From Roridomyces roridus (Eukaryota; Basidiomycota; Agaricomycetes; Agaricales; Mycenaceae), in the NCBI GenBank assembly GCA_029378245.1, contig JARKIF010000034.1:186001-250000 (forward strand): a stretch of DNA of 64,000 bases. Reading direction: 5' to 3'. A program made the position numbers and the translations under genes. The notes beneath the pieces were generated by a model that was not told where the DNA came from, made no database searches, and saw only the letters and a list, made by a program, of their open reading frames with translations. Shown here piece after piece: positions 2,386-23,742 of this stretch. Position 1 is the stretch's first letter, and each line of letters begins with the position of its first letter.

Positions 2386-5300
2386 TCAGCCAACCTCTGT
2401 CCGTTTCTTCTTCCCCGGCGTCTTCTTTTTCGAACGAGTGACTTTTATAGGCTCGGGTGTGCTCGTCCTAACCGCCTCGTCGTCGACCTCGTATTGAGGG
2501 AAGGATGTGGCCATCGCGCCGCGTGTAGGAGTGTTGGTGCCTCCTGTTGATCGCGGCGAGGGCGTCACAGGTAAGGGTGGTAGAACGGCGCCATCGGGCA
2601 TCTCGCCGTCTCTGTCGATTGTGAATGATGTACTGGAGGGCGTGTATGATTCTCGTAATGAGGGTAATACCCGGTGGTCGTCTGTAGCGTGTTAAGTCTA
2701 ACTGAAGACGAAGGAATGAAGGCCATGTACCTAAAGGGAGCGCAGGCATTCCTTCTAACCGGACAACAGGTATCGAATCCACATCGTCGTGAGTTCGCGA
2801 AGTGGATGGTCGATCGTCGACAATGTAATACGGGTCCTCCCGCATTCGTTCTCGTCGTTCAGCCAGTCGCTGCTCAAGCCCATGTTTTTCAGCAGCACCA
2901 GCAGAGCAAATGAAGTTGACGCACCTGTTCCCTCTCAAGAGCTTCCTCAGGCGTCTCCACATGGCCCTCGGGTGACGCCAGCTCATCTGCATCCCCGTTA
3001 ACCTCCTCCTTGTGTCTATTCTTCGCCTTGGCCTTGCCCCCGTTGACCTCACTCTTGCCCTTACCCTTCCCCTTCTTGGCCTTCCTAGCCGCCTTGGCCT
3101 CCGGATCCTCCACAACAGCCTCTGGCGGCGGCGGCACAATCCACGCATCCAGATCCAGACCGTCAGGAATGGCCACGCTGGCTTGTGCTGCTAACGCCAC
3201 GGGGTTGAGCTCGTACACATCATGGAGCGGTTGAATGAGGTATAGGCTCTTTGGGAATCGGGGCTCGTTTGATGACATGGGGTCAAAGGAAGAGGAGGCT
3301 TCGGCGAAGGGGTTTTCCGCGGGTCCTCGCGGTCGGTAGGATTTCAGGTCCGCTTGGATGAAGGTGAATAGTTGGAGCGAGTTTGCAGCCTGTAATCAGA
3401 CGAGCTCGATAAATACGGGAGAAATAATTAATTAAAACACTCACCCGCTCTTGCACCTCCACATCTGAGCTTTTAGCAAAGTCGCCGACGCGGGTGATGA
3501 ACAAGTCAACGGTAGTATTGACTTCAGCGAGATCGCTGTCGTCCCACCGCTGTGCGATTTCCGCTGCCCAATATCCAAATATTTTGGATGTAGCATGGAT
3601 GTAGACGGCCACTATCTCGGGATGCAACGTAGTCACTTGAGGCTGCAGGAGGTACGGCAGGAGTTTTTGAGGCTCCGAAAGCTCGCTGAGGCGCAAGATG
3701 AGTAAACTAGAGGCGAAGAACGAACGAACAAACCTGCAATATTCCCCACATATCCAAGCAGCAGCCCAAAGTACCTCGGAGCAACTCCCCTCCTCACGAG
3801 CATTATGCAATATCGTATCGTCGCAAAGCAGAGTATACATCAGCTTGACCGCATAGCGCCTCACGCCTTTAACCCGACCCACGACGTCAACGAGTTGATC
3901 TCGAATTTGCACTCCCACGTCAACGTTGGCGACGTGTGCCAGGTCAACGAGGACGGAGAGATACCACTCAAAGTTGGTGATGTTCTCGTACATTGATTGT
4001 GAGCAAATGCTGAGAATTCGCTGGGCGAGGACGAGGCGATAGGCGGGGGATTGGCTAGGGGAGAGAGGTTTATTTGACGTGGGTGAGCTGGGGATAGTGT
4101 GTTGAGCGAGTGATTGGGCGGCTGTTTGCGCGGTTGAGGAGGAGTCGGGGACGAGATGGGAGAGGACTTGTTGGACAATGGATTGGAGGTTATTCGGTGT
4201 CACCTGAAACGTATTTTAGTACAAGTGGAAATTTTCGAGATTTGACGGACCATGGCGGATACAAGATCCAATGCTCGCAATCGTATACTGATATCTTGGT
4301 CATTGACGCTAGCGAGAATCGTGTCTTGGTATTCCGCTACCAAATGAGGATGCGTCGGCACGATCTTGACCAGGGCAAGTAAAGCAATGTACTTGACTAG
4401 AACCCGTTATTCGAGACAATCAAAAGCGACTTTTAATACATACGATTCTGATCTGCATCTTGAATAAAGGCAGCAAGCTTCGAGACACACAACTTGGCCA
4501 GAGAGTAGCCCGAAGACCCTTGTAGCATCCCTCCAATGATGCAAGTGTGTACACATTCATACAACAACGAGATAGCAGGTGTTGTGGAGATGAGCTCTGT
4601 TATGGGTGGCTGGAGTTTCTTGACCAGCCGCGGTTCATGCGGTGATAGTGACCCAAACTGAAATGCATGGTATTAGAAAATGCTTCAGGAAGTGGAGGAC
4701 CGTGTACCAATTTGACGATCTTTATGAGCATCCAATTGTTCGTGGAGCTGGTCAGCAGATGGAATAGCTGGGGAGCGAGTGTCAGGTAATCCTCCGGATT
4801 GCGTCGTGCCAATTCACAAAGAACGTTGACGGTCGAAGCAACCACGCCTATTCTAGTTGAGTGAGCCCGGAATGCGCGTCAAAATAGTTGGAAAACGCGC
4901 CTGGATCGGGGTCGTCCAACTTGTCCTTCAGCCGCGCGACGCCAGGCTGCAGCGCTTCCGGGTACTTGATCATGACTTTGTACAGTGCCAAAATCGCTCG
5001 TTTCCGGATGTGGGCTCGGGAATGCGTCAACATGGTGATTAATTCGGGCGACAAGTCGCGACCCAGGTCTGGGGTGACGATGTGGGATAGACCGTTTAGC
5101 GTCAAAGCCACGTCTGAAGGGTTGGAGGTCATGTCCTACGCGGAATGAATATCATTGCCAAGGTAGATGAATCTCGACCGACGCACCTTCTTGAGTAGAT
5201 TCGTGGTGAGCATGAGAACGTCCGTTTCCTGGTCAAAGGACTGCACGGCGGCGAGATATCCGACACTTTTGAGATGGAATCTCGTGGAGGACATGACCTC

Positions 5301-5554
5301 GACTACATGGAATGAGGCCCAGCTCATATCTAACCCCAACATATCGAGCTACACGCAAGGTAGTGAGACGGCCGCCTGCTGTCGGGGGGTGTACATACAT
5401 AAGTGAGCTTGAGGACGGCACCAGCCTTGAGCTCCATGTCGTCGCTCTTGATCTCTGTCCTGATTTCATCGACGGCCTTGGCTATGAACTTGGATTCGTC
5501 CTTCTTGTTGGCGCGCAGGCCACGAATGAGGTCTTGCAGCGTGCGTTCCCACAT
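2386..5554 (-). CDS. APL5: AP-3 adaptor complex subunit delta
   Basis: This is the large delta subunit of the AP-3 clathrin-associated adaptor, which sorts cargo from Golgi or endosomes to the vacuole. The start is ATG at 5554, opening MWERTLQDLIRGLRANKKDE, the family's characteristic N-terminus. It is followed by VLKLTY, LGLDMSWASFHVVEVMSS and SVGYLAAVQSF on successive exons, typical of the adaptin N-terminal HEAT-like trunk. Later exons carry HSRAHIRKRAILALYKVMIK, VASTVNVLCELARRNP and the helical repeats of 4203-3283. The C-terminal part is charged and repetitive (EAKAARKAKKGKGKGK) and ends in a basic tail with a TGA at 2386-2388. I count about eight or more short introns and estimate 850-900 residues, usual for fungi. 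It is transcribed away from the monooxygenase gene at 6399. No damage was seen. Confidence 0.92.
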
Positions 5555-5947
5555 AATGCCGCGTATAAGGGACCTCGATTCACGCAGGGAACATTGTGGA
5601 GGGTGACGTGATTGGAAATCAGCGGCTTGCTCCCGACCACAAACTCTGTCCGACTCTTTGGCTTAAACGAACTTGCGAACCCCTTCAAGTTGGATGCTCG
5701 GGCAGTACAAACGCCTTTGTTCCGATTCACAGGCTTTGGGCAGACTACGACCACCCACGTACAATGAAGACATCTATTTGGATGGATTATTGCACGATGC
5801 TTTGACGATGCTACTACCGGCCCATGGTGCCGATTCTCGGGAGATGGTGTCCAGAGAGAAAGACTGGAGAATGGCGGCTTGTATGGACGGATTTATGGCA
5901 GGACTCCGCTCCGCCCCGCACGCCCATTCCGTCTCTTTCCTCATGTT
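5555..5947. other. Intergenic region upstream of AP-3 delta
   Basis: No confident gene. Overlapping frames of 60-170 codons on plus (5673-6188, 5824-6456) have no recognisable domains and unusual composition. The region presumably holds the AP-3 delta promoter. Confidence 0.4.
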
Positions 5948-6461
5948 TCAAGGTCCAAACTGCTTCTCCATGTTGCTCATCTCGACTAGGATGTGGTCCT
6001 CACTACCGTATTTTACCCCAGTTATTTCCTGTACTTGTCGCAAACGAATATTTCGAAGCAGTTCGTGGGAGTATTACTTGGCTTTCTCTGTCTCGATCCA
6101 CAACCATGTTGCACTATCGAGCCCACGCCCTTCACGTACAACGAATCAACGCGCAAACTGCGCGCATCGGTGGCATTATGGTGCCTGACGGCGATGAGAT
6201 GTTGGCCTCCTCAGCGTTGAACCCGACGCGCTTGGTTCTTCGCGTTTCTTGCTGCAGCTCTGATCTCCCAACGCTTTTCTACATGCACGCGTCCGTCAAC
6301 CTGTGGGACAGTCTGAAAGCGCGCAAATCCAATGACTCCAATTCAATCTCCATCTCTCTCAGGATGCGACAAATGGGCGCCCCATCATCCGGTGACCCAT
6401 GGCCACATATAATGGGACAGTTCGTACTTCCAACATATCGGAATGCCGCCTTGTGAGTCAC
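5948..6461 (-). pseudogene. Decayed minus-strand reading frame of unknown origin
   Basis: Several minus-strand segments read like real protein but sit in different frames. They are REMEIELESLDLRAFRLSHR (about 6362-6300), RTKRVGFNAEEANISSPSGT (about 6238-6180), REGRGLDSATWLWIETEKAK (about 6140-6080) and, after an in-frame TAA, ELLRNIRLRQVQEITGVKYG running to GP and a TGA at 5948-5950. Charged helical composition and conserved-looking tryptophans argue against chance. The in-frame stop and frame changes suggest a C-terminal gene remnant, perhaps from a transposon-encoded protein. I cannot assign a family. Its upstream end overlaps the first exon of the monooxygenase gene. Confidence 0.33.
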
Positions 6462-8995
6462 GGTAGGTTCCCCGCGCCAGACTTACTCAAGCTTTGCAGC
6501 AGCGTTATTTGGAGATTCTGCGATTGATGCTGCGCGTCCCATACGCGTCGTTGTGGTCGGAGCAGGATTTAGTGGTGCGTTGTAGATTTCAATTCGCACA
6601 GTGTATAACCCGAATCCAGGCATCACGACTGCAATCCGGTGAGCAGCTTTCATTCCAGGATACCTTCATTCGAACGCATACATAGATTGCTGCAGCGCGT
6701 CCCAAACATCAAGTTGACTATTTACGAAGCGTACGCGGGTGTCGGAGGGACCTGGTTCTCGAACAAGTATCCCGGAATTGCATGCGACATCCCCAGCCAT
6801 TGCTACCAACTATCGTTTTTTCAGAAGGTATTCACTCGAAGGCTCGACGAAATTCCTTGACTGACTGGTGGCGCAGACAGACTGGTCGTCTTTCTATGCG
6901 CCTGGCCATGGTACGAAGTCTCTCAAGATCAATTCACATACCAATCTTGTATTTAGAAATCCAAGCGTATCTCCAATCTGCAGGTCTGCATTCCACGGCC
7001 ACTGCAACGTTCACTCACTACTTTCAGTGGACGCATACAAACTCTGGCCGTACATCAAGCTTGAACACCGCCTCACCAATGCCATCTACTCTGAAGAAAC
7101 GGGCAAATGGAATTTAACTATTCAATACGGAAATGCAGAGCAATTCGACGACACTGCGGATATCCTCATCACTGCCATGGGCGCGCTGAGTCGATGGAAG
7201 TGGCCAGATATCAAAGGTCTCGACTCGTTTACTGGCAAGATCATGCATAGCGCCAATTGGGAGGCGGACAAGGGTGAAGGTGCTTGGGAGGATTCGTGGA
7301 AAGATAAAAGGGTTGGAGTTATTGGTGTGGTGAGTATCCATATATTTCCTTGACCACGGAATCCAACTCTCATCAGGGTTCCTCTGCCATCCAAATTGTC
7401 CCAGCTCTGCAGCCCAAAGTCGGCCATCTGATCAATTACGTTCGCGGCAAGACCTGGGTGTCTCCCACGTTCCTTGGGAATCGCGCAGGGGAATTGGGGA
7501 TGGGGAAGACCGAGTCGAATTGCACGTCGACTTGTTTTCCCCCTCTCCGGCACGCTGATTGACGGTCACAGATGTATTCACGGACAAGGACAAGGAACAA
7601 TACAAAGATCCGATGTTCTACAAAGAGTTTAGAAGAGATTTGGAATCGGATCTGAACGTCCGTATCCATACATCTTACTTTCAAGCAACATTGATTGATG
7701 ATGAGCTCAGTCGATCCACGTCGTCACGTTGAAGGGGAACGCCCTGCAAGAGATTGGCAAGGCGGCGTTCAAAGAGGATATGTTGCAGCGGCTATCAGCT
7801 AGGCCGCTCATTGCTGAACGACGTGAGTGTTCTTGTTTGACGTTGCTTGGTGCTGATTTCTTGTCCAGTTATTCCTGAATTCTCCCCCGGATGCCGTCGT
7901 TTGACTCCGGGGCCAGGGTATCTCGAAGCCCTCTGCACAGATAATGTTCTTCCCAGCTCGTTTCTCTAGCCTCACTCTCTGACTCTGACCCAGGTCGAAT
8001 TCAATTCCACCGAGATTAAGCAAATTCTGCCCACAGGAATCGAAACAGTCGACGGCAAGGTAGATGAGCTGGACGTTATAGTCTGGTTAGTCCTTTCACG
8101 TCCAACTGCCGACTCGTCCATAGTCAAATATCTACAGCGCAACCGGGTTCGATACCTCATATAAGCCCCGTTTCCCCATCGTTGGGCGTGGCGGGGTGAA
8201 GTTGGCTGACAAGTACACGCCGCACGCGAAGCATTATCTCTCCGTCGCGATTGATGGGTTCCCGAATTGGTTCCAGGTCATGGGGCCGAATTCTGCTGTG
8301 GGCAGTGGGTGAGTGCATGTTAACGCTGCGTTCGAGTTGGACTTACCTCGAGCTCAGATCCCTACTGATTGTAATCGAACGGCAAGTCGACTATATCGTA
8401 GAGGCGACCCTAAAGTTGCAGCGCGAACATCTGAAGAGTATGGAAGTCAAGGTTGAGGCGGTGGAAGATTGGGATGCGTACATCGAGGTCAGTTGTTATA
8501 TTCAACCACGAACACTCGATTGATGCTCTGGGTAGCACCATTTTAAGAAGGTAGGAACAGGCCGCGCAAGAACTTGTATTGACGCAAGCAGACCGTGTTC
8601 AGTGAAAAGTGCCGTTCATGGTATAAACAGGGCGGGGAGGAGGGACGGGTAGTGGCTCTGTGGCCTGGTGCGTTTGCGTTTGCGTCTTGATAAGAATGCT
8701 GGAACTGCATATAGGATCTTGCCTTCACGCCGCGCGCGCGCTCGAGCACCCACGCTGGGAGGATTACAACTACGAGTATCTGGAGGGCCATACGAATCGG
8801 TTCTTCTGGGCTGGGAATGGCACGACTGTGGCAGAGGAGACGGCCGGTGCTGATAGTAAGCCGTATGCATATCCTTCTGGTCGCCGTTAACTGGCAATTG
8901 TAGAGGCGTGGTACTTGAGCGAGGTCGATGTGCCGCCGCGTATGTATCTTCCTGTTCAGCGTCCCGCACGGATTGACGAGGTTGTAGTTTCCTAG
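6399..8995 (+). CDS. Flavin-containing (Baeyer-Villiger-type) monooxygenase
   Basis: This is an FAD- and NADPH-dependent monooxygenase of the Baeyer-Villiger class, which inserts oxygen into ketones or related substrates. ATG at 6399 opens MATYNGTVRTSNISECRL; a splice at the g of 'cac g|gtaggt' leads into PIRVVVVGAGFSG, the first Rossmann (FAD) motif. Next come GGTWFSNKYPGIACDIPSH, the fingerprint-like FTGKIMHSANWE (FxGxxxHxxxW), GVIGV|GSSAIQIVPALQP (second, NADPH-binding Rossmann motif, split by an intron) and ATGFDTSYKPRFP. The C-terminal part has GPNSAVGSGS and the end MYLPVQRPARIDEVVVS, with a TAG at 8993-8995. About a dozen short introns; estimated 600 residues, the expected size. The substrate cannot be told from sequence. 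It looks intact. Confidence 0.88.
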
Positions 8996-9447
8996 CGCAA
9001 TTCTTTTGTATTTAGGATTGCATTTTACAGCGTACAACATTTCTTTGTACCATGTAATACCTAATCAAGACCAACCCGCTTACTCTCACCGGACCCGTGT
9101 TCAGCAAACGCACATCTCACCACTATCTCATCTTTCACCACCGGCAGACTCGGACTGGCCGACCTACCGCATTCTTCATCATTTATTTCTCCCAGCGACC
9201 AGATCAAACCCTAGCCCACGTCCGAAACACCATGTTTGACGAGCTGGGATCCAGCCTGAGGGACAAGAAGGGTTCTACACTGGCAGGACTACGGTTACCT
9301 GGCCCCAACATTATTTGCTGCATCCCTTCTTTCCACCCTTCTCCACCTCCTGTCACGAACACATTTCGAGGAGCAACTGCACTTGGGAAGAGCGCAAGCA
9401 ACAAAGAAGTTTCACGAGAATACAGACGTCAAATAATAATAAGATGA
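8996..9447. other. Intergenic, no supported gene
   Basis: Small open frames on plus (ATG at 9231, about 70 codons) and minus exist but none is recognisable. The stretch lies between the 3' ends of the monooxygenase gene (plus) and the split Crinkler/RHS-like gene (minus). Confidence 0.5.
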
Positions 9448-9789
9448 TTATTGCGCAATCTTTTTCAGGGCATCGTGAATGTCCGGGGAGACATACTGCA
9501 CTCCCACCTTGTACTCCATCTGCCTTGCTCCTCTGCGCGTTTGCTTCGCTTCGAATACATCCTCTTTCTTGACCCACAGAAAATGCCACTGTATGATCCC
9601 CACATTGAGTGTTGAATTCTCCAGCACTTCTTTCCAGGCCTCCCAATCCCCTCCATCAGCATAAAACTGCTCGTTGGAAGGTTTGTGTCGAGGGCTGACC
9701 GTTATCTGGACCGCCATCAGGTGGGTAATCCTTTGGGCGGCATTTCCGGTGCTCCACACAACCACAGCATCGACGTATCGGAAATCAAA
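9448..9789 (-). pseudogene. 3' fragment of Crinkler/RHS-like gene copy A (nuclease-like domain), separated by a transposon
   Basis: This minus-strand exon encodes the C-terminal domain of the protein whose 5' part lies at 19446-21617. It opens with FRYVDAVVVWSTGNAAQR and continues MAVQITVSPRHKPS, GDWEAWKEVL and IIQWHFLWVK, ending at a TAA (9448-9450). It matches the last about 105 residues of copy B (27209 onward) almost position by position. The hydrophobic strand with D, followed by QIT and H, resembles the restriction-endonuclease-like domain described for RHS/Crinkler effectors; that assignment is inference. Here it is cut off from its promoter and N-terminal exons by 9.6 kb of inserted DNA, so it is presumably not expressed as part of a whole protein. 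Confidence 0.75.
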
Positions 9790-9799
9790 ACACCCATGC
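9790..9799. repeat. Left target-site duplication of the KDZ element
   Basis: acacccatgc directly precedes the left inverted repeat. The right flank has acaccaacgc: eight of ten positions agree. A duplication of 8-10 bases fits what is reported for KDZ/Zisupton-type elements (about 8). Confidence 0.65.
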
Positions 9800-9851
9800 T
9801 ATGGGGTTGATGGCGGATTGGCGGATTGATGGCGGATTGATGGCGGAATTC
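9800..9851 (+). repeat. Left terminal inverted repeat of the KDZ element
   Basis: It holds three ttgatggcgga units and one shorter ttggcgga unit, ending gatggcggaattc. It is the inverted partner of 19386-19435. Confidence 0.8.
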
Positions 9852-10200
9852 CCTTGCACCGAACTCCATGTACGGCGATCTCCAAGTACTCATGCATGCT
9901 TTTCCGTGCAAGGGATTTACCCTGCATCCCTTCTCCTGCACCTAGGACCTCGTCTTGAGTAATCTGGTCCGCTATTTCCATTCACAGATTTCCATGTAAG
10001 GATACCGGTGTAAGCAAATCCATGCAAGGAATCTCGTACATGCATTGCTCTGAAGCCTGTGCAAGGAATCCTGTGCACAAAGTCCCTTCTACCAGATTTC
10101 TTCGTCCGGCCAAATCCCCTACACGGAAAACCATGCACGGAAAACTGTACAAGTGAGACGTGCATGAAATTCTGTGCACCGAATTCCATCCATAGATTAG
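9852..10200. repeat. Left subterminal repeat array of the KDZ element
   Basis: Many degenerate copies of a short motif occur in both orientations, for example ttccgtgcaaggga, ccatgcaaggaatc, ctgtgcaaggaatc, catgcacggaaaac and tgtgcaccgaattcc. The consensus is roughly tgcacggaat, spaced about 20-35 bases. The same motif fills the right subterminal region. Such arrays often bind the transposase; that role is inferred. Confidence 0.7.
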
Positions 10201-10260
10201 CGGAGACTTTGTTTGCTTGTAGCTATTCAAAGCCCTGAACAACTTCCAGCGACAGCCATC

Positions 10261-12493
10261 ATGCCAGTCCTTGCGGTAGAGATTCTTCGGCGCCTACTAG
10301 CTCATACATCCCTAGCCTCTTCCTTGCAGTTCTCACACATACAGCGTTTTCTGGAACTCACTCGGAGAATATGGCCGGAAATTGTGGGCAGAAAGGGAAT
10401 CTTGCCTGTGGCTCTTCCGGCAGCTCCCGCCGCTTTCTTGTCGGCCGCCCTCAACCTCCCGCCTGAAACCGTCACTCTGTCTTGGGTTGCATTTAGTGAC
10501 ATTGCTCAAAGACTGTACGAAGACCCGGCAGAGCCACCTCTGGACGATGCATTCCGTTTGCATGGCATGGATTATCACATTGGCGCGTATACGCTGCCCT
10601 CCATCGTTCTCTTTTTCTTATAGTCCTGGATAGGCGCCGAGTACTTGGGTCCACCCATTCATCAATGCTCCCGACCTTCGTGCAACCAAAAGCAGCTTTC
10701 AGACCCAGTAACCGTCGAAGCCCGGCTGTTCACGCTTCACCGTGGTGTACTTCCTGTGTTTTCGAATTCTCTTTATTGCCGCGGTATCTCACATCTCTTT
10801 CCGCTTTAGTATGTTCGTTCTGACTGATTCAGGTTGCCATACCCGCTACTATCCAAACTACTTTGTAAAGGATGCCTCCAATGCGGACGAGGCTACTCGG
10901 GAATACTACAAGTCCGAGATTCCTAATTACATACACGTCACCGAATCGACCTTTGTTGAGAAGCAGCTTTGTGTCCATTTTGAAATGCAAATGGCCATGA
11001 CCCAGTACGTTCCGAATTTTGGGTCATCAGTCTGGAGTTGCAGCTCATCCGATTTACTAGTTCTTCCTCTCAAGGGATTGCCACCATTTATAACTTGGCA
11101 TTGGGCACATCTGCTGTCCCCCACTCCTCTCGACTCAGTCACCAGCTTGATGGAGAGATGGTCTTCGACTGCTTCCTTCATCATGCCATCTTACGGGACA
11201 AATCCACTCGTCATGAAATCCTGTGTGTCCCTCATGGTGGTCCTCAGCGCCATCGGCTCGACCAAGTGTTGGCTCAGCGCAACTATCTCATCATGGGTAC
11301 CGGGCAGGAGATGTGGGCTCATGCATGTGATCGATGCATGAAGGTATACAAGGGAGATGATGGAAACTGGTGTGCGTATCTCTCAGCATTGCGCAAGCTT
11401 CTGGATTGAGTTTCTCGGAACACAGATATAATGACCGCTGGGGTGCATGACGGCGTTTCCGTCCAGCATCTAAAGTGCCGCATCCATGATTGCAAAGAGC
11501 CGCTTCCATCTCAAAAATCCCGGTTCTGTCAGCCTCACAACCAGCTGCGCTTCGCTTGCTACATTGATGGCTGTTCGAACGCGATTCAGACTGGCTTCAG
11601 TACGTGCACGATCGCATCTCATCGAGCCCATGAGCTTGCTGCACTGGAGCACCACAAGGCTATGTTCCAACTCCACAGTCGTCTTCAAAACGCCGGAATC
11701 TCTCAAGTTCCACAGGCGGGCTCCTCAACACCCGTGCCGACTTCCACTTCCAACTCTGCCTCTAATAGCGGTCCCACCCCAGCGACTTCAAGCACCTCAT
11801 CGGGCCAGACATCTACACCTGAAGTCAAGGGCAGCAACTCACGCAGCTACACGCACAACGAACAGCTTTTCGTGCGCTGCTGTGGGGTAATCATTTCTCG
11901 AGCAACCTTTTTCGGATCTGAGGGAATCACCGGCGTCTCAGTATGTTTTTTCTCTTACTTCAAACCTCCATTCTCAGACCGTTATGCAGCTGTTCTTGAA
12001 GGCGACCTTTCCTGAGCAGTATCCAGGCGCCTTGCCCTCCTACATTTTCTATGACAACAACTGCCAATTCCAAAAGCATCTGAACGCTTCTGGTGACCAC
12101 TATTTTGATCGAGTCGGTCTTCCTGTCGATGTGTGGCACTTCGAGTGCAAACACAAGGAGGGGGACACCTTTTGTCAGACTCATTGCAACCCTGCCCGCT
12201 TCCGGGAGCTCATCGGGGCAGATGGCGAGTGGGTCTTTAATTCCTCTGCGGCAGAGCAGGCCAACGTCTGGTTCGGAAAATTCCAAAACATAGTACGGGA
12301 AATGTCTGCAATCCGGTGCGTTACTCTTCTTTCCGTTTTCAGCGCCTTTCCATTAATTCTCTGCAGTTATAATTTCTTCTTGGACGAAATGATTGCCATC
12401 CACAACCAATACATAGTCTCACAACTCCAGCAGAAGGGAGAGCGCCCCCACATGCTTCCAGACGAGATATTATGTGGTACTAGCATGGTCTAG
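10261..12493 (+). CDS. KDZ transposase with CxC5- and CxC6-like cysteine clusters
   Basis: Predicted transposase of the Kyakuja-Dileera-Zisupton superfamily. The start is ATG at 10261 (MPVLAVEILRRLLAHTSLAS). The N-terminal helical region is followed by a first zinc-binding cluster: CSRPSCNQKQ, then SLYCRGCHTRYYPNYFV, as in CxC5 proteins. After two more exons comes a second cluster, CRIHDCKEPLPSQKSRFCQP with CYIDGCSNAI, as in CxC6, and a Ser/Thr/Pro linker. The catalytic part carries SYIFYDNNCQF (candidate acidic residue), DVWHFECKHKEGD and SSAAEQANVWFGKFQNIVRE, ending in a TAG at 12491-12493. About 640 residues after removing five or six introns. No stop or frame break was noticed. It converges on the RTC4-like gene with only 30 bases between stops. 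Confidence 0.82.
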
Positions 12494-12523
12494 AGGATAA
12501 TTTATTCTTATTGAAGCTGCATA

Positions 12524-13654
12524 TCATTCATCTGCCGGAAACATTTGCACACCGTACGTGGAGCTAGCTCTAAGAATATGCACTGCTCCAGCTGCATCCA
12601 AGGCCGCGTCCTCACTGTCCTCCATAATGAGGCGCATCGCAACCTCCGGCGTTAACACATTGATGATGAACTCCATCCAGGTCATGGGGTCGACAGAAAC
12701 TTTGAGCGCCTCCGAAAACGGAAACATTTTCATCAAAGTCCGATGAATGACCGTCGCACCCATTTCGCCGTAGCTGTTTGGCGTTAGTGGCTGCATCTCC
12801 GTGAGTAGGGAGCACATACTAGCCCGTTTGCATGTGTTGAAGTCTGCTGTATTGGCCACGCGCACTGAGGGCTTTTGCGAGGGATCCCAGAGATTCGGTG
12901 TCAGCGCGTAGCTGCTGCCAAAAGATGCAAGCCTCCCTTGGCCCCGTGCGTTCTTCAAATATCGGCCTGAGTTCCGGTTCCATCCAACTGACTCTATCCC
13001 CCAGGGCGTACCAGTTGTGTTCGGTCGGCCATCCGTTCGCCAGGGCTTCCGGGAGTACTTTGAGCTCGAAATCATGCTGAGAGCAAACGGAAACGGCAAT
13101 GGCGGTAGATGTCGTTCGACCCCAGACGTTATGAAGTCGAGGATCGGCCTGAGACATCTTGGATGCGGAAGCAAGAAGGGTGCGCAGTTTCAGGCTGATG
13201 GGTTGAGGCAGCTCGGAATCGCAATGGGGACAAAGGTGGTCGGGATCTGGAGTGAATTTTCGGCCTGTGGCGTCTCAATTGCTGTGGCACTCACGCTGAG
13301 CCTGAATAGTGTCGAATGGCTCCAATCTGCTCTTTTTCCCAGCTCCACCCGGTCCAGGGCTTGATAGACGCCGAATGAGGTTGCTCTTGACAGAACGCCT
13401 GGGGAGACTATAGATGTCGAAGCCGCGGGTCCGTTGTTGGCGAGGCTTGGAGAACTTGGTTGCCATCGGTAGGCAGAATCGGTAGAGAAGTTCCGCGTCT
13501 CACGTGGTAAGAAACAAATCAAAACAACACGTAAACTCACCACCCTGTTTGCTGCTGCTTTGACGAGATGGTTTCCAACACCCATCTCGTCCTCCCCAGT
13601 GTCCCGGCCCCTTACAAATGTTGGCCTCCGGGGCTCTGGGGATACGACTATCAT
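12524..13654 (-). CDS. RTC4-like domain protein carried by the KDZ element
   Basis: Start ATG at 13654 (MIVVSPEPRRPTFVRGRDTG), stop TGA at 12524-12526, about four exons. A Cys pair in LCPHCDSELPQPISLKLRTL is followed by a long helical region (LHNVWGRTTSTAIAVSVCSQHDFELK is in the same exon). The final exon contains MTWMEFIINVLTPEVAMRLI, then MEDSEDAALDAAG and a serine-rich end. The arrangement VL(T/V)PE.A..LI.ED is what I know from the RTC4-like domain. RTC4 in yeast is linked to telomere maintenance, but the molecular role of the fungal domain is unclear. As transposon cargo it may help mobility or dampen host silencing; this is speculation. It converges tail to tail with the transposase gene. 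Confidence 0.7.
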
Positions 13655-14007
13655 GTCCTGTCCTCTCCTATGTTACCGGCCCCATACACTTGTTGGCACC
13701 CGGTGGCTTGGGAGAGGTAGAGACGCGCAAAACGTGTCGCGTCGTATTGAATTTTGAACTTCACGGCGCGCGAGAGAATCAATCAACTCGCTGTTTGACA
13801 AACGCAAGCATAGGTAAGTTTTTGCTGGAGACAACCCTCATTCTAAACCGAGAATTGCCAGTTCCACCATCGCCAATCTTCGACAACACCCGACTTGCTG
13901 TCCTGATGCCGCACAATATAACTTATTGCCACTGCGCACGGACCACCTCAGATATCGAGACGTCAAAATCATCTACATCTTCGAGCTATTGACCGGACAA
14001 TGTACTA
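13655..14007. other. Gap inside the KDZ element, no supported gene
   Basis: A plus-strand frame (13618-13992) runs through but is unrecognised. The stretch probably holds the promoter of the RTC4-like gene and the 3' flank of the next minus-strand gene. Confidence 0.45.
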
Positions 14008-16251
14008 CTAATCCAGTTTATTCTTGGCAACCTTCTTTCCCAACGCCTGAGGGCTCAAGCTGACGTCCTCCTGCTCCAAAAATTTGGCAACATCCGGCTC
14101 TTCCTTGCGTCGGTCAATCTGTTGGAATGCCACCTTGCATTGAGTAAGCCACGACTCTCCCCGATCAAAGACCTTCTGCCAGATCTTCATGTTCGGTTTC
14201 CCATTCCTGACGCGCTTCAGCTCCTCCTGGTCTGCATCGGGAAAATCCTCTCCTTCTATGCGGGTGTAGTGTTTTAGCACATACTGAACCTCTTGGATCC
14301 AAGACCATGTTTTCTTGATGTTCGTAGCAGTATTGCCTCGCTTCTCCTCCCGTATCTCCTGGATGATTGAACGCGCAGGAACAAGGTGCTTCAGAAGGAA
14401 ATCAAGGATGGCTGAATTTTTATCAGCGGTCGCTTTCTTGACTTTCCCCCAACCGGATTCAGCACGCCACGCCGTTATACTGTTAACACCTTCCTCCGTC
14501 CCTGGTGGGAGGCCAGGAACATCAAGACTTTGATCCTAACAGCAACGCTAAGGTGCGTGTCCCAAAGGTTTGGAGGAAGCTCACCGAAGGATGCTTGAAG
14601 ATGACCATGATTCGAAGAGCATCTTCTGATCCCTGGACGGGGATCTCTCGATGATGCGCGACGGAGTCATCAAATTGCACTTCTTCACTCTGGGCGTCAT
14701 GCACGCGCGCTATGGGTCCGATGGCTGATGTATACCCCGGGAGGCACCAGAGAAGGTCCCAAGGAGCTGAACAGACGGTCAGCGTGCACGCGGATTCCGG
14801 AACGAGAGAGCCGCATTCACCCTCAGGGAGAAGGTTCTCGGATTCCATGTAGTCGACGATATCTCGTGTCTCGACATAAATACTAACAAAATCGTAAGTA
14901 ATCAGATGCAATGGAGGTGAGTGGGTGGGCTTACCACTCAGTCGATCCCTCCGGTCCATGTGCCTCCAGGTTTACACCTTCAAGGAGAGAAACGATGGTC
15001 TCGTCGTTTTCTGGGTCAACACTGCAGTGTTTTATCAAAATGACGACAGTCCACGGCTTGTCGTACGCCTCTGCACAAACCCTTGAGGTGATTTTCAAAC
15101 AGTGGTGGAAGACGTACGTTTGTCCAAGGCTTTCGTGTAAAAGTCCTCATCTTTGACGTATCGGGGCCACTTCTCATCTCCATCCTCTTCTTTCTCTTTC
15201 TCCCCGCCTTCACCCTCGCCGTCACCACCAGTTTCCTCTCTATCCTTCTGCTTCAGCTTGTATTCCTCCTCCTCTTTGCGCCTTGCCTCTTCCTCCTCCT
15301 TGCGCTTCGCCTCCTCCTCCTTGCGCTTCGCCTCCTCCTCCTTGCGCTTCGCCTCCTCCTCCTTGCGCCTCGCCTTCTCCTTGCGCTTGATCTCTTCCTC
15401 TTCCTCGTTGCGCCTCGCCTCCTCCTCCTTGCGCTTCATCTCCTCCTCCTTGCGCCTCGCCTCTTCCTCCTTGCGCTTCATCTCCTCCTCCTTGCGCCTC
15501 GCCTCCTCCTCCTTGCGCTTGACCTCATCTTCCTTGCGCTTTGCCTCTTGCTCGTCACTCTTCAGCTCCTCTTCGTCACTCTTCGGCTCGTCCACGTCCA
15601 TGGATTCGTCGGAATCCATGTCCGCACTGATACCGCCCCACTCGTCTCCATCATCATCCACATCCATATCATCCACATCCTCCGGGCGAGGAGCGTAATC
15701 TGGCGCATACACCAAGGGCACCCTCATTGGGCCTACACTGGTTTGTTTCACAATATTTCCGTTGGATTGAATGGGGGATGTGGGAGGCGTAGTGAGAGGC
15801 GAATCAGGCAACACTGGAGGTGCCGGCTACAAAGATAGTCAGTCCAGCTCTTTCATGGCATTCAAGGACTCACGGGCACGGGGACCTTAGCTCTCCCTTC
15901 CTTCAGGAAGTGCTTGAAGAGGTTGTCGACAGCACGGGTTGGCAGTTCCTCGATGGAGTCGCTGAGCACGTATGTCCAGTCAACGGTGATTTCAAGGTCG
16001 TGAACCCTCTTGATGGTGCGGGTTAATTTCTTGGGTTGCTCCTTCGGTAGCAGCTCTCGGCCCAGATGAACGGAAATTAATTTCTGGAAAACACTCAGTA
16101 TCCAGCCAAAATACCAATTGTGATCGAATACCCAAAGTTCAATGGTATTCAAAGGCTGGTCATATCTGAAGAAGAAAGGGATGAGCGCCTAGATTGGCAC
16201 TAGGGTTGAGACTCACAGATAGACCGTGGTCAACAGCCAAGGCTCAGACAT
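14008..16251 (-). CDS. Lys/Glu-rich protein of unknown function carried by the KDZ element
   Basis: ATG at 16251 opens MSEPWLLTTVYL. After an intron comes LNTIELWVFDHNWYFGWILS and a conserved-looking N-terminal domain (TIKRVHDLEITVDWTYVLSD, EELPTRAVDNLFKHFLKEGR). The middle is proline-rich, then acidic (DDMDVDDDGDEWGG), then a long (K/R)RKEEE(A/M) tract predicted to be one charged helix. The C-terminal exons contain LPGYTSAIGPIARVHDAQSE, SAILDFLLKHLVPARSIIQE and NMKIWQKVFDRGESWLTQCK, ending in a stop at 14008. I do not recognise the family. Frames join well across about seven introns, so it is a real gene. Location between two other minus-strand cargo genes of the same element suggests an accessory role for the transposon. 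Confidence 0.7.
15264..15560 (-). repeat. Low-complexity codon repeat (KRKEEEA/M units) inside the Lys/Glu-rich gene
   Basis: About a dozen tandem copies of a 21-base unit, ctcctcctccttgcgc(t/c)t(c/t)gc on plus, encode (K/R)RKEEEA or KRKEEEM. The array keeps the frame open. Such arrays change copy number easily and form long single helices. Confidence 0.85.
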
Positions 16252-16382
16252 CTTGAAACCAGTTCAGCGCACACAGAGGATACAAAGGGACCCTAACAAA
16301 TCCGAAAAACTGTGCAGTTGTTGCTGACCAAAAGCGTCTTAGCGAGCAAAAGTAATTTGGAATATTGTAAGGGTAAAATGTA

Positions 16383-18272
16383 TCAACAGGAATTTCCCTT
16401 TCGCCGGCGCCAAGCTGTCACCAACGGACTCCATTCCCCACCAGCCTTGTGTCCGCATGCGATAGCCCGATCCATGTCCTCACACGGCGTCTCTGACCAT
16501 GTCTTCCAGCTATCCGACCATGTACTTGAGTTAAATTCCCCCACGTCCAGGAAGCCAAACATCTTTTCAAAGAGCTCCCGCGCAGGCAGCTTTTCAGCCA
16601 GCTGCAGTCTTTTAGCATCTTTGAAAGCCGCATGCATGTCGACCGCAAATGCCAAAGGAAATTGTGAACGCTTGCCGGAGGGAGGTCTGATGAACACGAT
16701 TGAGTTCCTACGGTCACAAAAATATCAATATTACCTGGACGGCGATGGTGACACTTCCGGGATCGAGACGGGACTGCAGCGGACCAAGATGAGGAATGGA
16801 ATGAGCCAGGGTGGAAATGATCTTTGACGTACGTGGTAGCAGGAATGAATGCAACAAATTCTACCTCGTCTTCATCATGGCTTTGGGTGTTTGCCTGCAT
16901 ACGAGACCGCTTGGTTGGTGAGGGCGTGATGGGAGAACTATAGCATGAGTGGTTAAACCGAGTGGTGAAAAGGGTTTGAAGGATTGCACATACGAAGCGG
17001 TGGAGTCTGTTACAGAGACAAACGGATCAGAGAGTATCCGTTTGTGGGAAGAGGAGGGACGTAGGCCCACGCAGGTAGAAACCCCTGGCAGTCGGAGGTA
17101 AAGCTCCATGTTCGGCTTGACTTTGGTCGCTAGGCTGGTGGTCTGCCACTCGTCGTCATCCTCCGACGTAACAGCGAGCAACTCCGCTGAGGTGCGGAGA
17201 AACTCGTAGGTGGCACAGGGGCATTCGAGCCGACTGGTGATCATTTTGGAGTCCTTCGGATGGAAGTACGGGAATAGAGGTACAGCTTCCTGGAAGACTA
17301 GCGCACGAGACGTGTCCTGGAGTCGCATGCAATCGGTTTCAGGTGGAAATTAAGAAGTGTCAAAACACACCGAAGCCCAGAGGCGCACTTTGATAGTGTG
17401 CTGCATGGAGAGACGGTATTCTTCCGTCTGAACACGTTTTGAGGGTGAGATGTCAAAATCCTTGTTCGCTATCTTCTCGGCGTATGCGGAAGAAACCATT
17501 CTGGCGAATGGACCCGCAAACGGGGCAACACTGGTGGCTGTAAGCGGGATAGCCGTGGGCAACGGGGCCGTTTTTCGGTGCGCGGGTACGCTGCAGGGAA
17601 CGGTGCACGCGAGGCAGCATTCTTTGCAGAACTTTTGGGAGCATCTCTGCGAGCCAGCGCGAGCCTTTGGTGCAGACCGGCAGTGATCGCTGGTGCAGGA
17701 CTGCCTTTTGCTGGGCGTTCTTGGGTTTTCAATGGCATTGCCCCAGGGTGGAGGACTGAGCTCGTCCACCCATTCAAAGAAGTCGCAACCTTTATCATCC
17801 CGGAAGGTATTGGCAGGACACTGTAAACGTAGCATTAGCGTGTCAAAAGACCACCAGCCGAGGAGCTTGTTACTCACTCCGCGCCAGTAGCGCCCCTCAT
17901 TTCCGGGCGTCTTAAAGCCTGTAGAGGGCTTGGCCTCCGTGAGTGGCCATTTCTTGCATTTTGGGCAAAGAGCGTCGACACAGGCCCGTGAGTCCATGCA
18001 GAAAGAAGAGTGAGAACTGTACAGGTGACAGGAAACAACAGCGACAAACCAGGGCTTTCCATCGTCTTGCAAGGAAGTTGAGGAGGATTCTGTGGACGGA
18101 CTTCGATCGAGATTTGATGCAAGGTAATCAGTGGACGCATTTGGAAAGAAGGCTGCATCCAGATTGGTGTACGGAATTCATTACACAACCGAAATAAATC
18201 TAGAGTGCTGCCCATCCAGTGTACCCCCAACCCACCCAGCCGGGCGTCGCATGCGAGGACAACATACGACAC
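16383..18272 (-). CDS. GRF-type zinc-finger protein carried by the KDZ element
   Basis: The diagnostic part spans two exons: CPKCKKWPLTEA, TPGNEGRYWRG, then after an intron CPANTFRDDKGCDFFEWVDE. This is the GRF zinc finger (paired Cys, the glycine-arginine motif, C..FF.W), a single-strand nucleic-acid binding module. A second Cys-rich stretch follows (CTSDHCRSAP, CSQKFCKECCLACTVPC). Downstream exons contain SKMITSRLECPCATYEFLRT, MELYLRLPGVSTCVGLR and SHDEDEVEFVAFIPATTY; the last exon has AFAVDMHAAFKDAKRLQLAE and FGFLDVGEFNSSTWSDSWKT, ending at 16383-16385. The start is unresolved: an ATG at 18272 opens a frame with an unclear first splice, and reading in phase with the GRF exon extends only to about 18190. 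No known enzyme domain was seen. Confidence 0.68.
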
Positions 18273-18960
18273 TGGAATCTCGAATATTCGTGTCGTGTTA
18301 CTGGCAAGAATAATCAGTAATGAGGTCCATAAAGTGACGCGTACGCCTCACCCCAAAAAGAAGACCAAATGATTCATCGCCCTGCCAATACAGCCTGTGC
18401 GTTCAAACACCCCGTCAACAGTCGGCCGTAGTTCTTCGCAGATGATCAATTTTTTCATTCGGTGGATGATGTCCTGCGGCCGCTGAGGTAGGGAAAAAAT
18501 CAGCCGCAGGAACATAGGCCCGAACGATGAACTAACTATATGAGCTCAACGACGGTACAGTATTAGTGCGCAGCGCTGCATACGGTCGGCGATGCAGACA
18601 CAGGTTTTCAACGGCGCTGGTAGTCATAGGGCGGCGGGCCACGGGATATCTAAGAAGGTGTGGTGGGTACAGTAATGCCGCTCCGTCGAGAGTCTGTTGC
18701 ACGTTGAAGCACCGCAAAAGAGTCAGAGAAAGGATGGGGAGTACGCATAGGGAACGCACGTTGACATCTCCGGCACTTCAAATGCTCTGTCCCTGCGCCT
18801 CCATGGAGAAGACCGTCAACGTAGGCACCCTTGGGCAGCATGAGCATCAGACGAGAGAGAAGGAGCAGAAGCAAACCTGGACGACGTCGACAAGGGAGAC
18901 TCAGAAAAGAAAGAATCACGCCATTTGTTGACGGTCATGTGAAACGTACTGGTCTTGTTT
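18273..18960. other. Non-coding part of the KDZ element
   Basis: Short frames only, with none recognisable. It lies between the GRF gene and the right subterminal repeats, and probably contains the GRF gene promoter. Confidence 0.5.
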
Positions 18961-19385
18961 GGTCGCGGCAAGTCCGCGGAATTCCATGCAATGATCTCCT
19001 TCAGAATTCTTGCACAAGATTCGACGCAGCAATCTATGTGCACGGAAAGCCCTGAATGAAAAATCCAGATCGAATTCCACGCAGTGTTTTTCTTGCACGG
19101 AATTCAGTGCACGTCTCAGAGCTGACGCACCTTGCACAAAAATCCTTGCACCGGGATCAGTGTACGGAAGTAGCTTCAGGAATTGCGTGGAGAGTAATCA
19201 GTGCATGGGAATTAGTGCAATGAAGAATGTACAAGGAAAGACAAGAGAAATACATGCACCGGAATCCTTGGACAGACTCCCGTGCACAGAGAATCAAGGC
19301 AGAGCTTCGTGCACGGAAGTACTTGCAAGGATTTTCTTCTACGCTATCCTCGAATCCAGTGCACGGAAATCCGTGAACCCACGAT
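18961..19385. repeat. Right subterminal repeat array of the KDZ element
   Basis: At least a dozen degenerate copies of the motif seen at the left end, for example tgtgcacggaaag, cttgcacggaattc, cttgcaccgggatc, cagtgcatgggaatt, catgcaccggaatcc, cgtgcacggaagt and cagtgcacggaaatcc, in both orientations. Confidence 0.72.
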
Positions 19386-19435
19386 CAAATTCCGCCATCA
19401 CTTGTCCGCCATCATTTTCCGCCATCATACCAATA
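19386..19435 (-). repeat. Right terminal inverted repeat of the KDZ element
   Basis: Three (t)tccgccatca units closing with taccaata. Its reverse complement matches the left end in start, unit content and inner boundary. Confidence 0.8.
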
Positions 19436-19445
19436 ACACCAACGC
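19436..19445. repeat. Right target-site duplication of the KDZ element
   Basis: acaccaacgc matches the left flank acacccatgc at eight of ten positions. Confidence 0.65.
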
Positions 19446-21617
19446 TCTCTCGGAAGTTGCTGGCCATTGGCACGTATATGCCTTCGACCGTGATGGCGTC
19501 TGGGACAAGTTGACGAGAAGGGATGCGCAAGACTGGCAAGCGTCCGAAAGACAGTCTTGGAGGGGCTGGTTTCAAGTCCAAAGGAGGTAGGCGGTAACCG
19601 AGCCCGAAAACAGCTGTCACGGCGAACTCCGTTGAGAAGCCTACCATGGATGGGTTGTCCCTGACCAAGTGTATATTGGCCGCCCATCGCTTCGCATCCA
19701 AAACGATGATCCCATCTTGGAGTTTGGTGATGAGGCGGACTATGGCCGTGAATGCCAACACGTTTGAATATCGCCAGTGCCCATTCTGGTCTTGGAACAT
19801 GAATCTCCTATCAGGCATTTCCACCACGACATCCGCTTTATCGCAATTCAACACCGCCATGAGGAAGTCAGCCACATCCGTTCTGAGGCTACAGTATATG
19901 TAAGAATGGGAAAGAACGGAGGGAGTAGAAATAGCTGACATCTCTTGGCGACTGTTTAAGAGATTGGAATAATGACGGTCCAGTTGAGAGAAAATGGCAT
20001 CGGAGTAATCAATGGAACTTTGCGAAAACTCGAGAAGTTCTTGAGAGAAACAGCGCTCTTTTTGAAGCTTCTTAAAAAATATGTCGACGAGCATGGGAAC
20101 TCCTCCCGTTGTCGCAAGAATGTCGTTGACGTGGTTTTCCTCGAGCGGAACATTGGCCTCCTTTTCGTAGTTTTGCATCCAACATTGTAGATCAGGCTGC
20201 TCCAGGAGAGATGAGATGAGAATATGGTGCAAACAGCATCCTTACCGTTGGTAAAGTATACAATGGGAACTCATGGCAAATCTCCGAGAACGCGGTATTT
20301 GTATGGTGCGTGCGCCAAATATCCCCATTGGGGTCTGCTGTAAAATACAACGAATGGCCTCTGGCCATCGAAAGTATAGTGTCCATGATTTGCGAGGACG
20401 GGGAGTCGAGATGGAGTGCGATGATGACCATTTTGTGGCCCTTGGAGTTCATGGACTGCATGAAGTTTCGCAATCCTGTTAGTGGATCCGGGCCCCGACA
20501 ATTGTCCAATAATTTATTGATGAAGACCTTCAGTTCTGGGTTTGCGCATAGTGCAACACCAATGGCATCCCGGATGTCCTTTGGACGGCTTCTCATTGAT
20601 GACAGCACCAGAAACACGACCGGACATCCGAGGACGAGCAGCACCACTGCGAGGGCAGCCAAGAGGTGACTTTTACCACACCCCTGAATACCCACTACAT
20701 TCACCATCTCGGTCTTATTGGACCCATCGTTGGCGATGACGTCTTGGACGAGCTCCGGGAGAGCCGAGCGCGTCCTATATTCAAAATGAGTCCGTTTGTC
20801 GTTTGCCGTCGCTTTGAAAGTGCCCGGAAGCTCACTGCCCAAAAAGGCAGGGAAGGGGATGCTCGTGGTATGGCCGGACTGATTCATGATATCTTTATAT
20901 CGCATTTCTTGCACGATGTGGTCGACAAGGGATTGAGCGGAAAGGGTAAACTCTTCTCTCGACTGTTCTGGAGGGCAGGTGAATATGCATACAGGATGTG
21001 ATAATTGAAAGAATTACCGCTGCCAAGGTCTGTATCATCAGACTTTGAAGCCGTCAAGGTTTCTTGTTCCCTAGGTCTCTTCGAGGGTGAGCCTTGCTCC
21101 GTTTGTTCCATAGAACTAGACAGTTTGCGTTTGTGCTGTTTGGGATAGATTATGAAGCGGATACCCGGAGTCGAAGGATCCAATTCGAGAGTTCGGAAGA
21201 TTTCTGGCAGGGAGACACCCTCGCTCCAAACCCAGGCGTTCCCGTCAGGAATGGCCAGCTTGGAGTTGCCGGCTACGAGACCTTGTTGGTCGGCTTGAGT
21301 CGGTTGTTGGACTAATCGTTCTATGGCGCAGGACCAGTGGGTGTATAGTTTCTCCTGATATTCGGCAGACCGTTGTACGTCCAGCGGTGGGTCCATCTAG
21401 AAGAAGCTCCAGCACCGTTTATCGAGGTCAGGATTGAGTGCCGCACAATATATACAGTGGCTTCGTTGGCCTCGATTTGATTTACGGACCAAGCTGCCAT
21501 TATGAGCTTGCTAGGTCCAGTCGCCCTCGCCCACTCCATACATATCATCTTGGGCAGCAACGGGTGATTGTCGAGCTTCAGTCCCAGGAGGTCAAATGAC
21601 TCCGGCGAGTCTGTCAT
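19446..21617 (-). pseudogene. 5' part of Crinkler/RHS-like NTPase-nuclease gene, copy A, interrupted by the KDZ element
   Basis: ATG at 21617 opens an N-terminal domain (LLGLKLDNHPLLPK, then MEWARATGPSKLIMAAWSVN). Next is a linker with a basic patch (SPSKRPREQETL), then a P-loop NTPase: VVGIQGCGKSH (Walker A), SMRSRPKDIRDAIG, and a hydrophobic strand ending ALHLD (Walker B-like). A later ATTGGVPMLVDIFFKKLQ resembles the TGG.P sensor segment of AAA/STAND-like ATPases in RHS and Crinkler proteins. The part ends at SNFR where the transposon begins; the nuclease-like domain continues at 9789-9448. The family is thought to act as effectors or in conflict with other elements. Family assignment is by architecture and I could not test it. 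At least four introns. It is described here only as a broken gene. Confidence 0.7.
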
Positions 21618-23742
21618 GGTGGGACAGTGAGAGATTAGATTATGAGTGGATGGGTGGATGGTCTTGATTGTTGATCGTTACCCGGTGCAAATGAACAAAT
21701 TCTATTTAGTAATGGAGGGCTTGTGCTTCCCTATGCGATTCTTCTCCTACTACGTAGTACTTGGCATGAAATTATATCGCGAACCCAGCGATCTATCCAA
21801 ACTTTGAAACGGTACTTACATGCTTCCGCTTTATTTTGCGAAACCTGAAGAGTGCTGGGTGACAGAGCGAATGTCCCCAACCTCGCTGTCGGGAAAAGTG
21901 ATGCACAGCTGGGCGACCTCGGCACCACGGAGGTGCCGGTGTTCTTGACTTATGTTCACCTGCGCTTGGTCAGTTACACGGAGAATGGGAAGAAGGGAGG
22001 AAAACGGTGTACATGCAGCTTCCGGGGTCGACAGTAACCTGAACAACTTCTCGGCCGTTGGTTAGATCGAAGTCTTGTCGGCCTTGGAGGTCTTGACAAG
22101 GCTAAAATCGCCGTGAGTGAATATGGTGTAGCTCATTCCGAAGCCAAACTCCAAGGAGTGATGCCCTTGACGTCAAACCACTTACCAGTGATGAGTGCGG
22201 GACGGGGCTCGCAGGCAGCGGCATGGCATGCGGTTGGTCCGGACATACAGCGAAAGAAATCTCACCAAATGTTGACCTGATCAATGTCAATAAACGAATA
22301 AAGCTGTAGGGCCGGCAAGCGGCAAGGCCTGCTACCATTGAGCGAGGCCAATGTCAACATCAATTGTTGAACATGACAAGTTCTATTGAACCTAATGCTA
22401 AGGTAGTGGATGGTGGGCTAGTACTTATTCATCCCTGCAGCAATTGCAAGCCGGACTAGATTCAGAATCATCACATAGGACTTGAAAAAACAGCATTTGA
22501 CGGTGCAACATAAGTACAATCTTATTATCCACCATGAGTTGCAGTGGTCGCTCGTCCGTGCGCCGCTTCGCGCCGCACTCCCTCGCTCCTCAGGCTGCCA
22601 TCCAACTTGAAGGATCCAAAATAGAATTGAGTCAAAAGAATGTCAGTTGAAGGTCACAGAGGACGGGAGAAATGATACAGCACCATTCATTCAAGGGACT
22701 GCAGTCAGTGTGGCCCGTCGACTCTTCTCAGTACAGAGTTGTTTCAACTTGTGCAATGAAAACTTATTGTTCAACCCCATTGAATTCAGGATTCGACCTC
22801 CAAAATAAGCCGTCGACGATTCGAGCCTCAACCCAGGAGAAGCTCACCAAATTTGAAATGAGCACGGTCAGCACACTGAACTTCGTTGTCTATCGTGCCG
22901 GTTGCGCGCCGGCCTGTGGTGGAGGCTGGACTCCGATGGAGGCTCAAGCAAGGCTCAAAAGGGCAGTGTAAGTAAAAGCTTGGCAAGCCGCAAGAGAGAA
23001 CAAGAATCAAATTACAGCCTTCCAAGGTGGAGGGTGGTGGCAGTTGAGGACGGAAACTTATGTCAAGCAGGAGCAAGCAGAGAGCAAGGCATTTGGAAGG
23101 GGTTTACCTCACTGTGGCACTCTTGGGAATCTCTTTCGGCAAAGAACCCGACATCTGTGCATGGCATTTGCACAGATGTTGAAAAGCCTGTCGGATACGA
23201 CTGCTCCCGGAAGACGAGGTCATCAATAGTACGTTGGAGTTCGGCAATCATCGGCTTGGCGTAGCATTTGGCTGGATACATCAGTGCTGACGCAAAAACG
23301 AACGACAAAAACGTGATCGCCTGCAAAAACCAGAAAATAGGGCGCCCTATAGAAACCTGTACCTAACGGTAGCAGGAATCTTGACTGGTTAAAGAACACG
23401 CACTCCTTTGTCATGGGATTCGCGGCCGATGGCAGATAGATGCACGAACAGCGATGAGGTCGCGATTCCAGGTAAAAAACACGGTAACACCAGCAGTGAA
23501 CCAGGACGGACACCAGCCGTCCTGCAAGCATATAGCGGTAAAGCCAAGGGGAGGAACTTCACCACCCGTGAACCCAACATTTTCCAGTGTATCCCGTGGT
23601 GACGTTGACCTATAGCGTGGTTAACAACATGAGAGGCGGTATTCGAAGTCATCAGGTTGAGAGTGCCTTTACTGTCGAAAAACCATTCTTCCATGTACCG
23701 CCAGTCACCTTTGCGATATTGTCCTATGGCGGACTTGCCGAG
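21618..23742. other. Gene-poor stretch between Crinkler/RHS-like copy A and the RNase H1 pair
   Basis: I find no confident gene. A minus-strand string between about 23735 and 23064 looks coding in places (MTSNTASHVVNHAI before a good intron; a hydrophobic AITFLSFVFASALMYPAKC after another) but cannot be joined into one protein. It might be a small secreted protein or a remnant. The rest (21690-23060) holds short frames only. The left part presumably carries the copy A promoter. Confidence 0.4.

Follow-up and report, generated by a model that had tools for sequence, protein, structure and literature searches.

The described systems closest to the element reported here, a complete transposon at positions 9786..19449 of a stretch of Roridomyces roridus DNA, come from Cryptococcus neoformans, from other Agaricomycetes and from the oyster mushroom. 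The stretch, hereafter the window, is the whole 64,000 nucleotides analysed (C268:186001-250000). The Cryptococcus neoformans elements KDZ1, KDZ2 and KDZ3 are about 9-11 kb long, have terminal inverted repeats of 139-241 bp and encode a KDZ domain together with CxC1; the duplications are 8 bp for KDZ1 and 4-8 bp for KDZ2 and KDZ3 (PMC12810828). Kyakuja elements have 7-bp duplications, CA..TG ends and TET/JBP genes, and lack terminal inverted repeats (PMC12730594). An insert of 6,792 bp, carrying a CxC5/CxC6 gene of 739 residues, disrupts poMSH4 in sporeless Pleurotus ostreatus; genes of this type number from 44 to nearly 60 in the genomes of oyster mushrooms (PMC7641404). The authors of that study reported only CxC2 before an intact KDZ and proposed a link to Copia for CxC5/CxC6 (PMC7641404).

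The Roridomyces element resembles Cryptococcus KDZ1-3 in its size, terminal inverted repeats, 8-bp duplications and zinc-cluster transposase, and differs from them in having CxC5/CxC6 in place of CxC1, no match to the KDZ domain PF18758, and terminal repeats under about 70 bp (PMC12810828). Like Kyakuja, a member of the KDZ group, it is an Agaricomycete DNA transposon of KDZ-like type that bears extra genes. Unlike Kyakuja, it has 8-bp duplications, CA..TC ends, imperfect terminal inverted repeats, and a cargo of RTC4-like, C and GRF-like genes (PMC12730594). The poMSH4 insert is similar in that a CxC5/CxC6 gene lies inside an insert that breaks a gene and has further genomic copies; in contrast, it is shorter, and the available text of that report gives no terminal inverted repeats, target duplications, transposase role, RTC4 or other cargo (PMC7641404).

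The element is very probably a recently mobile DNA transposon with the CxC5/CxC6 protein as its transposase. Its copies, duplications, empty allele and open frame are observed, while the RNase H (ribonuclease H) core is a structural prediction. A 2014 paper in PNAS is said to have defined KDZ and may already describe CxC5/CxC6 proteins as transposases. Within the literature searched, which left out that KDZ-defining paper, CxC5 and transposon as whole words stood together in PMC7641404 alone.

Copies, target-site duplications and the empty allele

The transposon is 9,664 bp long and is placed on the plus strand by the orientation of its transposase. Its limits are those common to three copies with differing flanks, together with an empty allele on contig C153. 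Copies were sought in the assembly (90.8 Mb in 501 contigs; C268 measures 583,101 bp) by querying it with the entire element and with either end by itself. Besides the window copy, the assembly contains two others: a full one at C469:900403-910049, and one on the opposite strand at C112:1310850-1322265 (C112 being 4,026,065 bp long), which is split by two later inserts. All three share the span of window 9786-19449 and are unlike beyond it. The window copy differs from that of C469 by 12 single-nucleotide differences and 19 gap columns, 18 of which are one unit in a coding repeat, and from that of C112 by 11 single-nucleotide differences and 17 gap columns, compared across three C112 pieces. 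The preliminary description had proposed a complete transposon at 9790..19445 and had made its case depend on a second copy of the ends in the genome. Completeness, recent movement and further copies are borne out, and the limits shift by 4 bp on each side.

An 8-bp target-site duplication is present at all three near-identical copies. It is GCTCGAGC on C469 and TAAAATTC on C112, both matching at 8/8 positions, whereas in the window TCGGAAAT on the left (9778..9785) and TCGGAAGT on the right (19450..19457), neither with a strand, match at 7/8. The near-duplicate pair acacccatgc/acaccaacgc, formerly taken for the target flank, was rejected as the target-site duplication. Both 10-mers lie inside the element ends and are common to the three copies, and the true duplication is found just outside.

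Searched separately, each of the two flanks has matches at two places, on C268 and on C153. On C153 the left flank aligns up to window 9783 and the right flank from window 19450, with a 6-bp overlap, and the flanks meet at a single TCGGAAGT. C153 is thus the same locus without the element, and provides the empty site with one copy of the short sequence that the preliminary description had anticipated. Because this locus lacks the element and has a single 8-bp site, the insertion is real and polymorphic. The two contigs are collinear on both sides of the empty site, at 95.5% identity across 5.7 kb on the left (window 4120-9783, 37 gaps opened) and 99.6% on the right (window 19450-22299). Over the 10 kb of C153 compared, the order tracks window 4120-24870, save for the element, a 1,076-bp indel and smaller left-side indels.

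Many loci recur as near-duplicates on separate contigs, so that the assembly seems to contain both haplotypes, a setting in which an assembly artefact or a segmental duplication could be mistaken for transposition. Such an origin is extremely improbable here, given that the flanks and the 8-bp duplications differ among the three copies and that the C153 allele is collinear with the window on either side of the empty site. The flanking alleles differ at 10/2850 positions on the right and at 4/1506 beside the left junction, which is more per base than the element copies differ from one another; judged from this divergence, the spread of the element therefore looks younger than the haplotype split at this locus.

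Both later inserts in the C112 copy have the form of small mobile elements. The first, of 661 bp (C112:1317023-1317683), has inverted ends of about 31 bp and an 8-bp duplication CCTGTGGC, and is presumably a small hAT-type element. The second, of 1,094 bp (C112:1318602-1319695), lies in an intron of the transposase gene of this copy, has 75-bp inverted ends and a TA duplication, and resembles an element of the Tc1/mariner type.

The CxC5/CxC6 gene and its relation to KDZ

The transposase gene extends over 10261..12493 on the plus strand. Its predicted seven-exon model is open throughout and encodes 635 residues, in agreement with the frame that looked open in the preliminary description; the first intron is uncertain in the model, as homologues carry about 10 extra residues there. 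The 635-residue protein matches the Pfam domains CxC5 (E 8.1e-31) and CxC6 (E 8.1e-19), both far above threshold, and, at E up to 1, gives none to PF18758, the Pfam KDZ domain. A protein search, in which scoring was confined to the 7,994 candidates with the most words in common, found 83 homologues, mostly named Mycena and otherwise from further Agaricomycetes. The KDZ domain is absent from the precomputed domain lists of all 83.

When these homologues and the window protein are aligned, three acidic residues are near-invariant, gaps aside: D326 (81/82), D500 (76/78) and E567 (74/75) in the numbering of the homologue P0001, equivalent to D318, D507 and E574 in the window protein. The structural model of P0001 is good, with a predicted local distance difference test score (pLDDT) of 88. 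Among the solved chains aligned to it, the ISCth4 transposase, IstA and retroviral integrases fit best, in most cases along residues 304-626. Five rows of avian sarcoma virus (ASV) integrase start at an offset that places D326 on ASV D64. In the model, the D326 strand is followed by the zinc cluster, two strands, a helix, a strand and then D500, helices, and the helix of E567. This predicted order fits an RNase H topology in which the CxC6 cluster is inserted between the first two strands. Based on conservation and topology, D318, D507 and E574 are proposed as the catalytic D/D/E triad. Since the protein has this candidate triad and a predicted RNase H core, gives no match to the Pfam KDZ domain, and has no homologue among the 83 for which that domain is listed, the CxC5/CxC6 protein itself is likely the transposase.

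Several points weigh against this reading. D525 (76/79) and D537 (75/76) are as conserved as the three residues above, and the triad is therefore only a proposal. The structure modelled is that of the homologue P0001 and not of the window protein. Foldseek alone gave nothing for this model at E <= 0.001 in the PDB or in the BFVD viral library, and the rows of solved structures come from a re-examination of Foldseek's own 792 chains and speak for the DDE families listed. Three other ASV rows (1asw, 1asu and 1cxq) begin on an earlier strand with a different offset; hence the pairing of D326 with D64 assumes no gap, and it concerns the first residue only. In addition, the 7/8 duplication in the window requires one later change.

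With respect to the KDZ group, the evidence is mixed. The 8-bp duplication reported for Zisupton and Cryptococcus KDZ1 is present at 3/3 copies and, as a suggestion only, at 7/8 positions in a relative on C442, and the cysteine (CxC) zinc clusters are represented by CxC5 and CxC6. An RNase H-fold DDE core would fit the P0001 model and the alignment, but Foldseek alone gave no match at E <= 0.001 and the triad is proposed from conservation and topology. PF18758 gave no match. The element is therefore labelled KDZ-like, and it probably represents a sister lineage to KDZ; for the KDZ assignment in the preliminary description, the clusters and the 8-bp duplication speak in favour, while no PF18758 match was obtained and the profile-profile match is weak. 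That it is instead a true KDZ transposon by the Pfam domain, merely divergent, has a little less than an even chance. This alternative is compatible with the same mechanism and differs on the family. It draws on the Pfam description of CxC5 and CxC6 as associated with KDZ transposases, on the length of Cryptococcus KDZ1 (about 11 kb) and its 8-bp duplications (PMC12810828), and on a single profile-profile hit to the KDZ proteins of this genome that aligns the YD..C, FH and CQ motifs. The hit, however, has an hhalign probability of 1.6 and an E of 0.031 against a KDZ alignment of only 4 sequences, and the domain is neither matched by the protein nor listed for its homologues, as described above. 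Moreover, none of the 10 CxC6 loci has a listed KDZ match within 100 kb; the nearest one listed is 165 kb away, on C491, and three CxC6 loci are on contigs without a listed match.

For the oyster mushroom insert, passive transport by a foreign element, for example a Copia retrotransposon, was proposed, as CxC5/CxC6 regions there are very often found with Copia copies or long terminal repeats and no KDZ-type transposon lies within the expected distance (PMC7641404). Applied to the Roridomyces element, passive transport is very unlikely. A six-frame Pfam scan of 9001-20500 at E up to 0.05 found only CxC5, CxC6 and RTC4, and nothing from the families of reverse transcriptases, integrases or further transposases; long terminal repeats as such and Copia near other copies were outside this search. 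The ends, the 8-bp duplications and an internal D/D/E protein suffice for a DNA transposon.

The termini of the element are CAAAAC...CTCTC. Terminal inverted repeats are readable at both ends, as first described, though they are imperfect as well as short and contain units of 11 and 13 bp centred on GATGGCGGA. The left repeat (9786..9850, plus strand) includes an array of 4 copies of TTGATGGCGGA at 9807-9847, and the right repeat (19385..19449, minus strand) an array of 2.9 copies of TTCCGCCATCATT at 19390-19428. The genome contains 4 exact matches to the three-unit pattern of the right array, located in the three element copies and on C2. A local alignment of the two ends scores 25.5, which was equalled by 1/3000 random pairs of window pieces. 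Subterminal repeats with a GTGCA core (motif GTGCACGGA, no strand) occupy 9851..10200 on the left and 18970..19384 on the right. With at most one mismatch and overlapping matches merged, the element has 17 occurrences of the motif, of which 13 fall within its first 500 or last 664 bp; the remaining 54 kb of the window has 13.

Repeat arrays of this kind can act as transposase binding sites. In the proposed mechanism, the zinc clusters of the transposase would bind the GTGCA-core repeats near both ends, and the enzyme, with a predicted RNase H core holding the CxC6 cluster between its first and second strands, would cut both ends and transfer them to target DNA with an 8-bp stagger. Movement would most likely be cut-and-paste; copy-and-paste is a possible alternative and a further point against the mechanism as drawn.

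A smaller relative is present on C2 (C2:719054-719355 and upstream). It is 852 bp long, with both end types, no large interior and ends 77-81% identical; a matching 8-bp duplication was looked for at this relative and none was found.

Cargo genes and the C442 relative

Beyond the transposase, the element carries three genes, all on the minus strand. The RTC4-like domain protein (12527..13466; annotated in Roridomyces roridus, P0091, 282 residues) was recognized by Pfam and protein search, and its exon model is uncertain. Gene C (14008..16251; 665 residues in the model) has a charged repeat region and a part homologous to P0087 of Mycena vitilis, and a Pfam scan of it gave no match. The GRF-type zinc-finger-like protein (16386..17997; annotated in Roridomyces roridus, P0084, 446 residues) was identified from homologues, with a Pfam GRF match below the cut-off only (E 0.009). 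In Mycena vitilis, two annotated proteins each join a part of the GRF protein to a C-type part, and for this reason the two may be a single gene, with gene C forming the downstream portion. The structure predicted for P0087 from 6 sequences has a mean pLDDT of 39.5 and is too poor for use. Pfam scans of the element gave no match to TET/JBP cargo.

A diverged and interrupted relative on C442 repeats this arrangement. Its transposase matches piecewise at about 43-71% amino-acid identity and is followed by RTC4-like, C and GRF-like matches in the order and orientation of the window element. The matches to C and GRF are weak, at about 26-38% identity; a stop lies within one of those to GRF, and retrotransposon domains sit in between the gene matches. 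By analogy with the window, the ends would be CAGTACACC...TTCTC, at C442:1647669-1671441 (23,773 bp), with inverted GATGGGGGA units on both sides and flanking bases matching at 7/8. An 11-bp repeat, GGTGTGAGTGG, which emerged when any shared 8-mer near the ends was considered as the duplication, was rejected because it lies off the predicted ends. The preliminary description had recognized the transposon and overlooked its three cargo genes, the empty allele on C153 and this four-gene relative.

The RTC4-like, C and GRF-like genes may travel as a fixed cargo set that would aid the element in handling DNA or chromatin. A transposase homologue and a GRF homologue of Mycena capillaripes are on contigs both sized 3,453,772 bp with neighbouring identifiers. 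This is just 1/6 GRF homologues from other species on a contig sized as that of a listed transposase, a comparison that relies on a protein search of limited reach. The search with the RTC4 protein found solely the Roridomyces protein itself and no other species, so that cargo recurrence for RTC4 rests on the C442 relative in the same genome. As for the C442 duplication, 9/961 placements of the ends within 15 bp give at least 7/8, and it is therefore suggestive only. These three results count against a mobile element with conserved cargo.

On a wider scale, the balance tips slightly towards CxC5/CxC6 proteins forming a lineage of their own among fungal DDE transposases, in which a zinc cluster sits between the first two strands of the RNase H core, and which move their own elements with 8-bp duplications and a cargo conserved in Mycenaceae, the insert in the sporeless oyster mushroom included. 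If the CxC5/CxC6 protein is the transposase, that insert needs no KDZ neighbour, and may lack one because its own CxC5/CxC6 gene supplies this function. The loosely labelled CxC5/CxC6 genes can now be tied to a whole element whose ends and duplications are defined and for which an empty allele exists, which makes their role as transposases directly testable. The recurring cargo raises the question of why a transposon bears RTC4-like and GRF-like genes.

The interrupted host gene and neighbouring sequence

Minus-strand gene pieces flank the element on both sides, as had been noted before, and resemble a paralogue in the window at 27212-29811 (minus strand; about 64% DNA identity across a 617-column stretch). 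The upstream pieces (19458..21396, minus strand) give weak profile matches to P-loop AAA-like ATPases, with AAA_35 the best in Pfam (E 0.0012, below the cut-off), and the last piece (9451..9777, minus strand) resembles the end of the paralogue. Crinkler or RHS profiles gave no match among the host-gene pieces, each scanned apart; the earlier description of the target as Crinkler/RHS-like is unconfirmed and amounts to a resemblance. Judging from these matches, the gene interrupted by this insertion, on one of the haplotypes, would be an AAA-like ATPase gene.

Two further features were seen in comparison with C153. A stretch of 1,076 bp (window 22300-23375) is missing from the C153 allele and has a possible 4-bp duplication, GAAT; inverted ends were looked for in it and none were found. 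Window 30829-31554 is matched at 97.5% by a stretch of C153 that also aligns near window 23.9-24.6 kb, and because the two places share this one stretch, a recent duplication appears to be present within the window.

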